From positions 37,752 to 70,240 of the forward strand of contig WAHY01000012.1 in NCBI GenBank assembly GCA_009873635.1: DNA of 32,489 nucleotides, given 5' to 3'. Positions 18,453 to 32,489 of the stretch are shown piece after piece; position 1 is the stretch's first letter, and the number at the start of each line of letters is the position of its first letter. This DNA is from Nitrospinota bacterium (GTDB lineage: Bacteria > Nitrospinota > Nitrospinia > Nitrospinales > VA-1). The notes beneath the pieces were generated by a model, which did no database searches, was not told the DNA's origin, and saw only the letters and a program-made list of their open reading frames with translations. A program made the translations under genes and the position numbers.

Positions 18453-19847
18453 GTGATAACTTTTAAATTCCATAAAATTTTCAGTTCGATATTTATATTT
18501 TTGCACCTGCTTTTTCCCCTGCAGGCTTCTGCCGCCCCGAACAAAGAAGCAAAATCCCATTATCAAAAAGCACTGAAATTGAGCCAGAAAAAAGTATGGG
18601 ATCAAGCTGTAGAAGAATTCAAAGCAGCCGCCAAACTGGCTCCCGAGGACAGCCTGATTCAAGCGAATCTTGGCGTTGCCTACAGTCAAACAGGGTCTTA
18701 CAAGGAAGCACTGCTCTCATTCGAAAAAGCATTAAGGCTTGGTTATGACTCTCCAGGACTGCGTTACAACAGAGGCGTTTCCTTTGCCCGGGTTCACTTG
18801 ATTGATGAAGCCGTACAGGAGCTGGAAAAGGCCCTGAGCATGGATCACCGAATGGTAAAAGCCGAGTATGATCTGGGAGTTTTGTATAGTCTGCAGGGTA
18901 AAAGAGAGAAAGCAATTGAAAAGGTCGAGGTTTTGTTCAAGAGGAACAATAAACTCGCAAAAAAACTATTCGACCAGATTGAATCTGCTTATACCGTAGT
19001 CACTGTTGATAATGGAGGCACCTTAAAAGGTCGTGTCACACTCTCCGGCCAGGTTCCCAGAGTCCGTTCTTTTCACCTGATCCACGCTCCAAATATAGAA
19101 TACTGTTCAAGGATATCGGATGGGAGGGGGCACCGTCTGCTGTTCGACTTCACGGTTTCTAAAAACCGGGGACTGAAAGACACCATCATTCATCTTGCGA
19201 ACGTTGAAAAAGGCAAACCCTTTTCACCCAAGATGCAAACCTTTCACATCAACCGTTGCCGCGCCAACGAGTATGTGATTGGCGCAAAAAATGGTGAGAA
19301 TATCATGGTGGAAAACACAGACCCAATCCAACACGAAATCGCAACCTATGAAGTTCGAAACATATATTCGGACCAAACCAGCAACCGACCCGTACCCCCA
19401 AAATCAAGCCAGGTCCGGAGCATTTTTGCCCGCAAAGATGCGGAAAATTATATTATTAAATGTAACCTCCACCCTTTCCTGCAAACTCACGCATATTTGG
19501 TGCAAAACCCCTACTACGCTGTATCCGACTCAGAGGGAAACTTCAGTATCGACAATATTCCACCTGGAACCTATGAAGTGGTTGCCTGGCACCCCTATAT
19601 TGAAAAACAAATAGGGACTGTTACTATCCCAGAAAAAGGAGAAGCGATTATAAATTTCGAATTCAAAGGGGAAGACGAAAAACGGAAACTGTACCACGAT
19701 GACATCAAAGGTTACCGGTTCAACACCTGGTATGACAGTAAAGAAAAGTTTTATGGTGGTGAGAGAATCGATGATCCGGTAGAAGAATTACAGGCCTACT
19801 GCGACAAAGACCACCTTTGCGGTAATTATAAAGCCAGGGAAAATTGA
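18453..19847 (+). CDS. Exported TPR protein fused to a cupredoxin-like / carboxypeptidase-regulatory-like domain
   Basis: 464 residues from GTG 18453. A signal peptide (IFSSIFIFLHLLFPLQASA) is followed by about four TPRs (about 30-170; KALKLSQKKVWDQAVEEF, then LGVAYSQTGSYKEALLSFEK and others). A domain shared with two other proteins in this window comes next. Its marks are GGTLKGRVTLSGQVP, Cys in IEYCSR, EKGKPF, Cys in INRC, His in IQHEI and CNLHPFLQTH. NPYYAVSDSEGNFSIDNIPP and VVAWHPYI follow as a regulatory-like beta sandwich. The His and Cys-x2-His suggest a copper site, but the Met seen at the end of this motif in the other two is Leu here. An extra C-terminal part contains CDKDHLC, a possible disulfide or metal clip. 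Periplasmic or outer-membrane-facing role inferred. Confidence 0.75.
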   Translation: MITFKFHKIFSSIFIFLHLLFPLQASAAPNKEAKSHYQKALKLSQKKVWDQAVEEFKAAAKLAPEDSLIQANLGVAYSQTGSYKEALLSFEKALRLGYDSPGLRYNRGVSFARVHLIDEAVQELEKALSMDHRMVKAEYDLGVLYSLQGKREKAIEKVEVLFKRNNKLAKKLFDQIESAYTVVTVDNGGTLKGRVTLSGQVPRVRSFHLIHAPNIEYCSRISDGRGHRLLFDFTVSKNRGLKDTIIHLANVEKGKPFSPKMQTFHINRCRANEYVIGAKNGENIMVENTDPIQHEIATYEVRNIYSDQTSNRPVPPKSSQVRSIFARKDAENYIIKCNLHPFLQTHAYLVQNPYYAVSDSEGNFSIDNIPPGTYEVVAWHPYIEKQIGTVTIPEKGEAIINFEFKGEDEKRKLYHDDIKGYRFNTWYDSKEKFYGGERIDDPVEELQAYCDKDHLCGNYKAREN

Positions 19848-27336: not shown

Positions 27337-27822
27337 TCAAAGCATTTTTTTTATGTAGGGAACTAATTGATCAGCACCAACAGCCGCAGCCCGTGCATTT
27401 AAAATGCCTTTTTGATCAATGATTAAAACGGTTGGCATGTCTCTCTGGGAATAAGACTGGTAGACCGATTTAACCGGGTCTATTAGATATGGGAACTGCA
27501 CCTTTTCTGGAAATTTACTGAGGTATTTTGCTACGGCTTCCCTGGAATCTCCATTAGTATTGATCCCCAACACCACAACTTCACCTTTATCAAATTGATT
27601 TCTGACCTTATTAAACTCCATGGCCTGGTTCATACAGGGCACGCAGATATGGAACATTCCTATTACAACAACCTTACCCTTAAAATCCGACAATGACACT
27701 TGCTGTCCTTCCATGGATTTCAAGGAAAATCCAGGAGCCGTGTCTCCCGTTGAAGGTGCTCCGGCAAAAGCAGGAACTACCGTTAAAACCATTATCAAAA
27801 ATAAAAGAATTGTTTTTCGCAT
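27337..27822 (-). CDS. Exported thioredoxin-like (TlpA/AhpC-TSA) protein
   Basis: 161 residues from ATG 27822, supported by GGAG 6 bases upstream. A signal peptide (TILLFLIMVLTVVPAFA) is followed by a redoxin fold: APGFSLKSMEGQQVSLSDFK, then VVVIGMFHICVPCMNQAM with the redox pair Cys60-Val-Pro-Cys63, and a cis-Pro segment RDMPTVLIIDQKG. The active site CVPC preceded by HI differs from the WCGAC of the other TlpA-type protein in this window, so the two are probably not redundant. It stands alone on the minus strand. The partner is probably a haem- or copper-protein assembly step in the periplasm, by analogy with the family. Confidence 0.85.
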   Translation of the reverse strand: MRKTILLFLIMVLTVVPAFAGAPSTGDTAPGFSLKSMEGQQVSLSDFKGKVVVIGMFHICVPCMNQAMEFNKVRNQFDKGEVVVLGINTNGDSREAVAKYLSKFPEKVQFPYLIDPVKSVYQSYSQRDMPTVLIIDQKGILNARAAAVGADQLVPYIKKML

Positions 27823-28288
27823 GATACACTCCATTTCATGGAATATTTAGCAGGGAAAACTGCTCTTAAAATAGGGATAATTTTCATCTCTATCTCCATT
27901 TTAGATCAGGCAAAACTATTTTGAAAGGGATTTAAAAGTGGTAAAAAATCCACCTTGTTCGAGTGAAAACTCTCCCTTGACTTGCTAAGAATTTTATACT
28001 AAAAATCAGGTGTAATCCTTTAGTTCTCTTAGGCTTTAATCTAAGATTTTTGTTCGATTCTTAAAGTTTTGATAAAAACCTTACCATTAGAGATGAGTCC
28101 TTATATCACTCAATATTTCAATAGGTTAAGTTCACTGCTAACAATCGGATTTAGACTTGGAAAAAACTTATAAATAAAAAATCGAATGCAGGCTTTTATA
28201 AAATCTCGCTTACTTCTCAAATGATATAATTATAAGTATTAGATAGATCCCTTCAAGCTGATAACTTTTTGAAATGAGGGTTTTAAGA
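27823..28288. other. AT-rich divergent intergenic region
   Basis: No coding frame or recognisable remnant in either strand; stops are frequent. A hairpin at 28027-28046 (TCTTAG and CTAAGA, 8-base loop) followed by five Ts is terminator-like on the plus strand, but no gene ends there. TTGACT at 27977-27982 is an isolated -35-like box. The region holds the promoter of the downstream plus-strand operon. Confidence 0.5.
28222..28230 (+). promoter_or_regulatory. Extended -10 promoter of the copper-type protein / three-haem cytochrome pair
   Basis: TGATATAAT is a perfect extended -10 (TG-n-TATAAT). No good -35 is present, as is common for extended -10 promoters. It lies 58 bases before ATG 28289. 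Confidence 0.5.
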
Positions 28289-29140
28289 ATGAAAAAAAAA
28301 TTGCTCCAAGTTTTGGTTACCCTATCTACCCTAATCTCCTTTTCTTTTCAGGCCATGGCCTATCAGGAAATAAATGTGCAGAACGGAGGAACAATAAAGG
28401 GTAATGCCAAGTTGACTGGTAAAATGCCATTTCCTCGAGTATATCACTTGATTCTGTTTCCAAATATTGATATGTGCGCTGAGGTTGATACTGACGATGA
28501 AATGAATAGGGTCCTTGATGATTTTAAAATCTCAGCTGATAGGGGACTAAAAGATGTGGTCATATCCCTGGAGCATGTTGAAGCAGGAAAACCTTTCGAT
28601 AAAGAGCCTATTAATATACTTTCTGAAAACTGCAAATTTTTCCCAGATGTAAGCCTTATTCGACAGGGAGAAACATTTACAGTAGATAATCAAGACGCTG
28701 TAATGCACAACAGCCAGGTATACCAGAAGGAACGAGGTAAGATTATTTTAAACATCCCCATTCCTGCAGAGGAAGTTACTGAGGGGAAAGTAACTTTTAA
28801 AAAGAATTTCAAAATCATGCAAATGATTTGTGGAATGCATGAATTCATGCAAACCTGGGGGTATAGAGTACAAAACCCCTATTACTTTAAAACTGATGAA
28901 AATGGAAACTTCAATATAGGCGATATCCCACCTGGTGAATATGTGGTCAATGCCTGGCACTACCTGATGAAACCGCAAAAAAAGAAAATAAAAATTGCCG
29001 CCGGTGAAATAATTGATTTGAGTTTTCAGTTTGATGGTGATGCAGTTGAGCGGCCTTTCTACGAAACAATCAAATCAGGACGAATCAAGAAAGATGCGGT
29101 CATTCCAGGAACCGCAAAAGGTAAAGAATTGGGGCGCTAG
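28289..29140 (+). CDS. Exported cupredoxin-like / carboxypeptidase-regulatory-like protein
   Basis: 283 residues from ATG 28289; GAGGG lies 8 bases upstream, so this start is better than ATG 28274. A signal peptide (LLQVLVTLSTLISFSFQAMA) is followed by GGTIKGNAKLTGKMP, Cys in IDMCAE, EAGKPF and Cys in SENCKF. The putative copper ligands are His in AVMHNS and the cluster CGMHEFMQTW. NPYYFKTDENGNFNIGDIPP and VVNAWHYL form the regulatory-like sandwich. It is the same family as 18453-19847 and 31794-32489. Its stop is one base before the TTG of the three-haem cytochrome, so the two form an operon and may work together in periplasmic electron transfer (inference). Confidence 0.8.
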   Translation: MKKKLLQVLVTLSTLISFSFQAMAYQEINVQNGGTIKGNAKLTGKMPFPRVYHLILFPNIDMCAEVDTDDEMNRVLDDFKISADRGLKDVVISLEHVEAGKPFDKEPINILSENCKFFPDVSLIRQGETFTVDNQDAVMHNSQVYQKERGKIILNIPIPAEEVTEGKVTFKKNFKIMQMICGMHEFMQTWGYRVQNPYYFKTDENGNFNIGDIPPGEYVVNAWHYLMKPQKKKIKIAAGEIIDLSFQFDGDAVERPFYETIKSGRIKKDAVIPGTAKGKELGR

Positions 29141-29141
29141 T

Positions 29142-31043
29142 TTGAAGTTAACAATACAACCCGATTTTACAATCAGGTATGGTGCGGCCTTTCTATGCCT
29201 TTATTTGTCGTTGGTAATTTCAATTCCTGTATGGGGGTTTAGCCCGCCGCCTTCTGAGGATATCCCCAAAAGCTTTGACTATAAAGGTAAGTCCGTAAAA
29301 CTTAAAAACCTGACCAATCCCTTCAAAAATGAACCTGAAGTCATTAAAAAGGGAGGTACTTTATACACAAAACATTGTTTCTTCTGCCATGGAGATTTAC
29401 TTGATGGCAACGGGATTTTTGGAAAGAGTTTTTTTCCACCACCTGCCGACTTCACCCGGCTAGACTCCATCCTCTCTCGACCTCAGGCTTACACCTTCTG
29501 GCGTATTATGAAAGGAGGCCAGGGACTTCCGGAAAAATATGAGCCATGGAATTCAGCCATGCCAGCCTGGGAGGGCACTCTAAGCGAAAAAGATGCCTGG
29601 AAAATCATAACCTACATTTATGAAACTGCCAGTCAAAGGCATGCCAAGCCTGGCAAACAAAGCCCACCATCTCTAGAAAGGGGGAAGCAGGTTTATCTGG
29701 ATAAATGTGCTTATTGCCATGGTGAAAAGGGCAAGGGTGATGGTCCTGCGGCAGATTATTCTATGCCACAACCGAGAAACCTGACTAAGGGACATATAAA
29801 GATACGCTCCACGCCGTTCGGGAAAATTCCAACCGATGCTGATCTTATGAATGTCATCAACAACGGGTTACGGAGTACAACCATGCCCGGCTGGAAACAC
29901 CTTCCAGAAAACGACCGTAAGAGTCTTTTGATATTTATAAAATCTCTTTCTAAAAAGTTTGCTAAATTCAAAAAAAAGGGAAAAAAACACAAGATAACTA
30001 AAGTAGGCAAAGCACCTCCCTTATCCCCGGACAGTATTGAACGGGGTAAAGACCTTTTTATGACTCAGTGCTCCGGTTGTCACGGCGTAGAAGGCAGAGG
30101 TGATGGTGTGACCACACGCCGTATTGTGGACTTTTCATCCAGCGCTATCTGGCCAAGAAACCTGAGTCAACCTTGGACGTTCAGGCGTGGCAGTACCCGA
30201 AAGGATATTTTTAAGACCCTGCGCACGGGGTTATCCACCAGTGCCATGCCAAAATTTTCTGAAAGAATTTTTAAAAATGATCAAATTTGGGATATCGTAA
30301 ATTTCGTCACGACTCTTGCGCTTCCTACTCAGCCAAAAATGAAAAGCCCCATTCATGCAAAAAAAGTGAGTGGAGAAATTTCGAACGATCTTAACGATCC
30401 CATTTGGCAAGAAACGAAAGCCAGCTTTATTCCTCTTGGAGGTCAACTACAGTCAAAACCAAAATCCTATTTCCCAACGATTCGTAATATTACTGTACGA
30501 GCTGTTCATAATAATAAAGAAGTCGCCCTGTACATTAATTGGGATGACCCATCCCTTGATCCAGCACTTAAAGAGTTTACAGAAGTTAAAGAGTCTCCTG
30601 CCCCGCCTTTACCAGATTATATGAAGGGACAAGAACCTGATGAACCACTCGAGCCTATTGTTCCAGAGTTTCCAGATGCTATTGCTGTGCAGTTTCCATC
30701 AGACCTTGATACTCAAACACCTTATTTTCTAAATGGCGATACCGATAATCAGGTTAATCTCTGGAAGTGGTCTACTGACACCAATGAAGCCGTAGAAATA
30801 CATGCTAATGGATTAGATGGACTCGTTTACCAGGAGGAGTCGGCAGTCAAAGCCAAGGCCAGTTTCAGCTTTGGCAGATATTCACTGATTTTAAAACGAG
30901 CCTTCAAGGAAGATGAAGGGGATATTGAATTCCTCACTGGAATACCAATCCCCATAGCTTTCAACGCCTGGGATGGATACCAGGAAGAAACCGGGAATAA
31001 AAAATCAGTCTCAAGCTGGTTCAAACTCTTACTCGAAGAATAA
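29142..31043 (+). CDS. Three-haem cytochrome c fused to an NXR/ethylbenzene-dehydrogenase gamma-type haem domain
   Basis: 633 residues from TTG 29142 (just after the previous stop; GGGG about 7 bases upstream). A signal peptide (about 12-34) precedes three cytochrome c domains: CFFCH (79-83), CAYCH (189-193) and CSGCH (310-314). Each is followed by a likely Met ligand (AMPAW, TMPGW, AMPKF). The C-terminal domain (about 400-633) has DLNDPIWQETKA, VALYINWDDPSLDP, DAIAVQFPSDLD and NLWKWSTD, ending FNAWDGYQEETGNKKSVSSW. That layout is typical of the haem b gamma subunits of type II molybdenum enzymes such as ethylbenzene dehydrogenase and the NxrC-like proteins of nitrite oxidisers. No NxrA or NxrB is in the window, so the electron partner is unknown. 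It could be an alternative gamma subunit or a free periplasmic electron hub. Confidence 0.85.
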   Translation: MKLTIQPDFTIRYGAAFLCLYLSLVISIPVWGFSPPPSEDIPKSFDYKGKSVKLKNLTNPFKNEPEVIKKGGTLYTKHCFFCHGDLLDGNGIFGKSFFPPPADFTRLDSILSRPQAYTFWRIMKGGQGLPEKYEPWNSAMPAWEGTLSEKDAWKIITYIYETASQRHAKPGKQSPPSLERGKQVYLDKCAYCHGEKGKGDGPAADYSMPQPRNLTKGHIKIRSTPFGKIPTDADLMNVINNGLRSTTMPGWKHLPENDRKSLLIFIKSLSKKFAKFKKKGKKHKITKVGKAPPLSPDSIERGKDLFMTQCSGCHGVEGRGDGVTTRRIVDFSSSAIWPRNLSQPWTFRRGSTRKDIFKTLRTGLSTSAMPKFSERIFKNDQIWDIVNFVTTLALPTQPKMKSPIHAKKVSGEISNDLNDPIWQETKASFIPLGGQLQSKPKSYFPTIRNITVRAVHNNKEVALYINWDDPSLDPALKEFTEVKESPAPPLPDYMKGQEPDEPLEPIVPEFPDAIAVQFPSDLDTQTPYFLNGDTDNQVNLWKWSTDTNEAVEIHANGLDGLVYQEESAVKAKASFSFGRYSLILKRAFKEDEGDIEFLTGIPIPIAFNAWDGYQEETGNKKSVSSWFKLLLEE

Positions 31044-31122
31044 GAGGCTAACAGCCGGTAGCAAAGAGTGAATTTTTTTCATACCTACTTATTTCTATAT
31101 GAGGAAAGACTCACCTTCCAAG

Positions 31123-31793: not shown

Positions 31794-32489
31794 TTACTTG
31801 GCGGTCAACGTGAAATCAGCTTTCGCTGCGCCACCAGATACTGTTACCTCTGCAGTAGATTCTCCAACATACGGCTGCCATGCAGTTACTTTATACTTTC
31901 CGTCAGGAACACCATCAATGGTGAAAGATCCATCAGCACCCGTTATCGCGTAATAAGGATTCCATACTATACGAGCATCAGCTTCCATGAAATTATGTTG
32001 GTCACACTGTAAGAAAAAGTGCTTATCTTTCTTTTGTTTTAATCGGGCAATACTCTTAGTAACATCCGCAACATCACCTTTACTCGGCAAAGGCTTATTG
32101 AAAAGGGTCTTGCGGTTAGCGCCTTTAACAGAATATCCGTGTGGGTTATGTAAAATACCATCGTCCTGATTAATTACTTTTACCACACCACCTGATTTTT
32201 TCTCAGCTTTAGTGGGCTTTCGAATCACACCCATTTTTTGTTTGATATCACATTTATCAAAATCAAAAACAAATTTACCGGCATCACCCCAAGGTTTACC
32301 TGTTTCAATATTCTCTATGAATACCACGGCATTTTGAAGTTTACCACCAGCTGCTGCAACTTTCACACGTGGTCGAATTCCATCCTTGGCGTCAGGATGT
32401 GTAGAACAAAACTCAACATTCTTGCCCTTAGACAAGTCTTCCATAATCGGAGCCATAGGCTCACCTTTCAACGAAACAGTTCCTGTGAT
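31794..32489 (-). CDS. Cupredoxin-like / carboxypeptidase-regulatory-like protein, 5' part outside the window
   Basis: The frame runs open to the right edge (ITGTVSLKGEPMAPIM at the end), so the start and signal peptide lie outside. The visible 231 codons have Cys in VEFCSTHPD, ETGKPW, Cys in DFDKCD and the putative copper ligands: His in GILHNPHGYS and the cluster CDQHNFMEAD. NPYYAITGADGSFTIDGVPD and VTAWQPYVG then form the regulatory-like beta sandwich. It is the third member of the family in this window, with Met retained after Cys-x2-His. The roughly 20-residue Lys-rich insert before the Cys-x2-His (SIARLKQKKDKHFF) is longer than in its relatives. A strong terminator follows the stop at once, suggesting a well-expressed single gene or operon end. 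Confidence 0.8.
   Translation of the reverse strand: MTGTVSLKGEPMAPIMEDLSKGKNVEFCSTHPDAKDGIRPRVKVAAAGGKLQNAVVFIENIETGKPWGDAGKFVFDFDKCDIKQKMGVIRKPTKAEKKSGGVVKVINQDDGILHNPHGYSVKGANRKTLFNKPLPSKGDVADVTKSIARLKQKKDKHFFLQCDQHNFMEADARIVWNPYYAITGADGSFTIDGVPDGKYKVTAWQPYVGESTAEVTVSGGAAKADFTLTAK

Follow-up and report, generated by a model that had tools for sequence, protein, structure and literature searches.

The window (the whole stretch of 32,489 nucleotides analysed here) forms the terminal part of contig C12 in a draft genome of Nitrospinota (G000; 2.62 Mb), and two adjacent genes are encoded on its forward strand near the contig end. The first one (positions 28289-29140) codes for a cupredoxin-like protein of 283 amino acids and closes with a TAG stop ending at 29140; an in-frame ATG at 28274 is a possible start. 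The second one (29142-31043) begins with TTG and codes for a protein of 633 amino acids, a three-haem cytochrome c with a C-terminal EB_dh (gamma-type) domain. A single base separates the stop codon of the cupredoxin gene from this TTG. An earlier sequence-only reading had described these coordinates, the one-base gap, the three CxxCH motifs and the gamma-type C-terminal domain, and all of them held when re-examined.

Conservation of the gene pair in Nitrospinales

Orthologues of the three-haem cytochrome, full-length or nearly so, were found throughout Nitrospinales (families f1 to f4) in a search of 60 relatives, and the best named relatives of the protein were Nitrospinota/Nitrospina MAGs. 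A cupredoxin orthologue was located directly upstream of the cytochrome gene in all 40 Nitrospinales genomes having both genes on one contig. In three further genomes the two genes were on different contigs, each at a contig end; in two others (G011 and G052) the contig started too near the cytochrome to judge its neighbour, and one complete genome (G016) presented the cytochrome without its cupredoxin partner. Intergenic gaps varied from -4 to 71 nt, being mostly 1 nt in the genus of the window, with stop/start overlaps in others, and such short gaps and overlaps suggest translational coupling of both genes. The order-wide recurrence of the pair in these marine nitrite oxidisers, which the sequence-only reading had proposed to survey, was borne out by this adjacency, and its occurrence together with nxrABC was borne out by the source genome, where the nxr genes are located on a separate contig (C10). 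A 720-aa nxrA frame of this genome was considered as a truncation and rejected, since its interruptions are stretches reading N; a 258-aa NxrC-like protein on contig C15 was likewise discarded as part of a second molybdenum operon, its neighbours being DNA polymerase III alpha and an M16 peptidase.

The cupredoxin-like protein

The product of the first gene displays a signal-like N-terminus, a cupredoxin-like middle part and a C-terminal carboxypeptidase-regulatory-like beta domain, and it was read as periplasmic. Its putative type 1 copper ligands, His140, Cys181, His184 and Met187 (28706-28849, forward strand), form a C-x2-H-x2-M motif with amicyanin-like spacing, and these four candidate residues were invariant in the alignment of 25 orthologues (62-87% identity to the protein of the window). 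The structural model reached a pLDDT of 67.6, with low values at residues 135-162 and 182-186, around the copper site; Foldseek searches with this model gave no significant cupredoxin match, amicyanin appearing at E-values of 0.14-0.3.

Homologous cupredoxins occurred several times per genome and some of them adjoined other small cytochromes, which would agree with a carrier of general use in the periplasm, serving some other enzyme such as a nitrite reductase or a peroxidase and having no special link to nitrite oxidation. Full-length cytochrome orthologues, however, were restricted to the nitrite-oxidising order Nitrospinales among the 60 relatives searched, and we regard this explanation as very improbable.

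Other members of the wide cupredoxin family were also observed. Second copies about 60% identical to the cupredoxin of the window were found in two genomes (L214 in G032 and L216 in G013), where they adjoin several small cytochrome c genes in a row. The window itself contains a gene for a 464-aa TPR protein (18453-19847, forward strand) whose C-terminal part is cupredoxin-related and devoid of the C-x2-H-x2-M copper motif; several relatives keep this gene at a distance of 10-30 kb from the pair. In addition, bd-like oxidase clusters of a proteobacterium (L198, 6030-6794) and of a Troglogloeales MAG (L179, 5956-6678) presented a cupredoxin of this family directly after the EB_dh gene, indicating that the copper association recurs beyond Nitrospinales.

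Domains and haem ligands of the cytochrome

Conservation argues against a chance pattern: all 27 orthologues in the alignment, whose identity to the protein of the window was 46-82%, kept the three CxxCH motifs of the cytochrome (residues 79-83, 189-193 and 310-314), and the candidate distal haem ligands Met140, Met248 and Met369 were invariant among them. Hydropathy analysis revealed a sole hydrophobic stretch (residues 10-35; 29142-29246, forward strand), which we interpret as a signal peptide; according to this analysis the C-terminus of the 633-aa protein has no membrane helix, and none of the 27 orthologues has a hydrophobic stretch past its N-terminus.

The C-terminal domain matched Pfam EB_dh with a whole-protein E-value of 5e-16 (59.8 bits, cut-off 33.3), whereas the match to TIGR03477 (DMSO_red_II_gam; E-value 1e-30, 106.7 bits) remained under the curated cut-off of 169.85. 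The C-terminal domain also matched the EbdC profile (E-value 1e-11) and, both by sequence and by fold (Foldseek), the PDB entries of EbdC (2ivf_C) and Kuenenia NXR-C (7b04_C). The gamma-type fold proposed earlier for this region was therefore upheld, with one profile above and the other below its own threshold. Matches to bacterial toxins in the sequence and fold searches of the PDB were dismissed as weak chance matches. The di-haem part (residues 173-394) matched Kustc0457 (6h5l_B) with an E-value of 1.6e-48.

In Kuenenia NXR-C the axial ligands of haem b are Met155 and Lys305 (PMC8387239). Counted along the alignment, these correspond in the cytochrome of the window to Asn531 (30732-30734) and Lys621 (31002-31004), both on the forward strand. 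Asn531 was invariant across all three-haem orthologues, Lys621 was replaced by Met or Arg in some of them, and no invariant His, Met or Lys was present within the EB_dh domain across the aligned orthologues. As controls, the NxrC of the nxr operon and the di-haem paralogues of the C11/C16 type from Nitrospinales retained both Met and Lys. Haem b in the three-haem protein is doubtful because Asn stands in for its axial Met, while the Met/Lys pair persists in NxrC and in one type of di-haem paralogue, and a normal Met/Lys haem b is unlikely in the clade of the window. The domain that the sequence-only reading had taken for a haem b carrier thus has the fold without the ligand set.

The aligned positions varied outside this clade: they were mostly His/His in Proteobacterial oxidase-linked homologues, Met/Arg in Manganitrophus, and Met, Tyr, Phe or Asn together with Met in oxidase-linked proteins of Nitrospinales, which indicates that the ligands drift across the wider EB_dh family. 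His at both positions was seen in many oxidase-linked EB_dh domains (L084, L093, L163-L169, L184-L199), which suggests a bis-His haem b in those homologues.

These results bear on the possibility that the cytochrome is an alternative gamma subunit (alt_NxrC), which would dock on NxrB and be reduced by NXR directly, haem b and haems c being carried in one chain; this was the idea of the 2013 genome paper and, in essence, of the sequence-only reading. The gamma-type fold, found by sequence and by structure, and the presence of nxrABC in the source genome are consistent with such a role, as is the proposal of alternative NxrC proteins with one to three haems c for NXR in PMC3578206. In contrast, the haem b Met is gone from every three-haem orthologue, the nxr operon of relatives has a dedicated NxrC with intact Met and Lys, and neither nxrA nor nxrB was found near the pair in any of 16 neighbourhoods. 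Moreover, alt_nxrC transcripts of Nitrospira moscoviensis were several-fold under those of nxrA, nxrB and nxrC_2, and their products were judged not to belong to the core subunits (PMC6606698). On balance we consider an alt_NxrC role unlikely. A special tie to a molybdenum alpha/beta pair, in the sense of the sequence-only reading, was thus not supported by these neighbourhoods.

Gene neighbourhood and the multicopper oxidase

Upstream of the pair, a divergent TlpA/ResA-like thioredoxin gene (27337-27834, reverse strand) is a conserved neighbour, and LolCDE/LolA-like genes were conserved in many relatives. Downstream, many genomes presented a convergent gene for a 1650-aa MnxG-like multicopper oxidase, and the last gene of its operon codes for a further member of the cupredoxin family found in the window. 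The oxidase was often present in two copies and was about 75-90% identical across Nitrospinales. In the window, a second cupredoxin of this family with a CDQHNFM motif (31794-32489, reverse strand) is truncated where the contig stops; its counterpart in relatives adjoins the multicopper oxidase. The oxidase coincides with three contig ends of the source genome (C5, C28 and C12). Since the window ends within the second cupredoxin and both oxidase fragments stop at contig ends, the junction was probably lost in assembly.

The cupredoxins and the three-haem protein might serve this oxidase, passing electrons to it or receiving them from it; such a transfer could belong, for instance, to O2 reduction or to the oxidation of manganese. 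Proximity (about 10 kb or less, on the opposite strand, at many loci), the order-wide identity given above and the same-family cupredoxin closing its operon point in that direction. On the other side, the oxidase is transcribed separately and convergently, the linkage is broken in some genomes (about 80 kb apart in G017), and known MnxG-type enzymes reduce O2 unaided, no cytochrome being needed. A partnership with this oxidase is improbable in our opinion, and that the pair ties nitrite oxidation to the giant copper enzyme, thereby placing it in the respiratory chain, is a long shot; if true, the enzyme would either act as a terminal oxidase, soluble and based on copper, or oxidise manganese and feed the electrons into respiration.

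Relation to bd-like oxidase clusters

The cytochrome aligned in two consecutive parts with two separate genes of bd-like oxidase clusters. The first part (29265-29624, forward strand), comprising the CxxCH motif at residues 79-83 and distal Met140, was 41% identical to a separate membrane mono-haem cytochrome; the second part (about 29622-31040, forward strand), comprising the motifs at 189-193 and 310-314, distal Met248 and Met369 and the EB_dh domain (residues 419-630), was 34% identical to a separate di-haem EB_dh gene, with which the alignment extended over 29622-31058. Both alignments abut at 29622-29624. In other Nitrospinota families, the mono-haem cytochrome with its membrane helices and the di-haem EB_dh protein are encoded by adjacent separate genes; at one G056 locus and at those of G055 and G059, the neighbour of these genes is a cytochrome bd-like oxidase (PF01654). 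The 174-aa mono-haem pieces in these three genomes were considered as products of stop-codon readthrough, an idea that was rejected: they are ordinary separate membrane genes. The order bd-like oxidase, di-haem cytochrome, mono-haem membrane cytochrome and di-haem EB_dh protein was also found in Nitrospinales, including contig C5 of the source genome.

At 26 loci from Proteobacteria, Myxococcota and Nitrospirota the cluster also contained a bd-like gene; the remaining loci, or their contigs, start at too short a distance to judge. Homologues from Proteobacteria, Manganitrophus (L177, L179-L181) and other Nitrospinota adjoined a bd-like oxidase wherever the upstream sequence sufficed, and those of Proteobacteria and other Nitrospinota had membrane helices at both ends according to hydropathy. 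The steady neighbour outside Nitrospinales is thus an oxidase, which goes against the special link to molybdenum alpha and beta subunits that had been supposed. Beside the pair itself, no bd-like gene was found in the 16 Nitrospinales neighbourhoods searched.

In the tree, the three-haem clade was placed next to the two-gene protein of G056, whose cluster begins with an Mrp-like subunit; support was moderate (84/87) and branches were long, so that the family context, and not a firm branch, is what speaks for descent from an oxidase subunit. Most simply, the three-haem protein would be a fusion of both oxidase-cluster genes that lost its anchors, became detached from the oxidase and was paired with a copper protein. 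Proteobacterial three-haem single chains exist, so that an old fusion with later splits (fission) in other lineages may also be considered.

Proposed role of the pair

We consider it somewhat better than an even chance that the pair is a soluble periplasmic relay of high potential linking donors (NXR, by way of NxrC) to oxidases; its carriers would be copper and three haems with His/Met ligands, and the EB_dh domain would have a docking or structural role. This reading starts from what was observed directly: gene order, the fusion alignment, conservation and loss of ligands, missing anchors and co-occurrence of the genes; the cofactor content, potentials, direction of electrons and partners of the relay we infer. 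Electrons from nitrite would leave NXR at the haem b of a separate NxrC and would then be handed on by the type 1 copper protein and by the three haems c with their His/Met ligands. The final acceptor would be either the bd-like oxidase, whose genes lie elsewhere in the genome, or a different acceptor in the periplasm. The source genome holds both nxrABC and the bd-like cluster. The cytochrome would represent the fused electron-input subunits (mono-haem membrane cytochrome and di-haem EB_dh protein) of the NXR-associated bd-like cluster, having lost the membrane anchors and most likely also haem b, co-translated with an amicyanin-type cupredoxin; its degenerate EB_dh domain may have been retained for docking or structure. 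The pairing with a cupredoxin and the fusion of oxidase parts point to a relay, probably, rather than to a new kind of molybdenum-enzyme subunit. From the electron exit proposed in the sequence-only reading, the two-gene unit was retained, with periplasmic transfer at high potential as its likeliest meaning.

Comparison with known systems

Alternative NxrC proteins with one to three haems c and two cupredoxins have been described for Nitrospina gracilis 3/211, and the bd-like oxidase, an MnxG-like multicopper oxidase and cupredoxins were named there as conserved with NXR (Lucker et al. 2013; PMC3578206). As characterised in the main text of that paper, the alternative NxrC proteins combine one to three haem c sites with a DMSO-reductase-type domain and some are periplasmic, features also displayed by the protein of the window, which is very probably the orthologue of one of alt_NxrC2-4. 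The supposition that the system is little described was accordingly half right, since Nitrospina proteins of both kinds, multi-haem alternative NxrC and cupredoxins, had been reported in outline in 2013. The main text, however, mentions neither a fixed cupredoxin pairing nor the missing haem b Met nor an origin by fusion; relative to it, to PMC6606698 and to PMC10839748, the order-wide cupredoxin pairing, the invariant haem b Met loss and the fusion link to oxidase cytochromes are apparently new.

The alt_NxrC_2/bd-like_3 cluster described in Nitrospira moscoviensis (PMC6606698) differs in being membrane-anchored, encoded by separate genes and adjoining an oxidase. In Ca. Manganitrophaceae, the TO_1 and TO_2 clusters contain a bd-like oxidase and a periplasmic cytochrome b drawing periplasmic electrons (PMC9040806); TO_2 includes an Mrp-like subunit, as precedes the nearest two-gene relative (G056), whereas the protein of the window is detached from any oxidase gene. 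It is also homologous in sequence to the cytochromes of OR-N type bd-like oxidases, which occur in most Nitrospinota (PMC10839748), but lacks their gene adjacency and membrane anchors. EbdC (2ivf) and Kuenenia NXR-C (7b04) share the EB_dh/DOMON-like fold, although they hold haem b by Met and Lys and have no haem c, whereas the protein of the window has Asn for Met. The likeness to Kustc0457 concerns the di-haem c part, and Kustc0457 is a stand-alone partner of the HAO-like Kustc0458.

These results bear on the route of electrons from NXR to oxygen in Nitrospina-type nitrite oxidisers, for which one set of candidates is narrowed and a putative copper partner of the three-haem protein is now named. 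In at least one "alternative NxrC" the haem b ligands are wrong and the relatives are oxidase-linked, which argues against calling every gamma-like multihaem protein an NXR subunit.

A different arrangement was observed in MAGs of Gamma- and Alphaproteobacteria (L228, 2903-14692; L229, L230; also L164-L166, L168-L175, L186 and L199), where a three-haem EB_dh homologue and a bd-like oxidase adjoin a molybdenum large subunit of the arsenite-oxidase/iodate-reductase type. These clusters also contain a Rieske subunit and two MauG-like di-haem proteins, a composition resembling idrABP1P2, and the coupling of a molybdenum enzyme to an O2-reducing bd-like oxidase could there serve iodide or arsenite oxidation.
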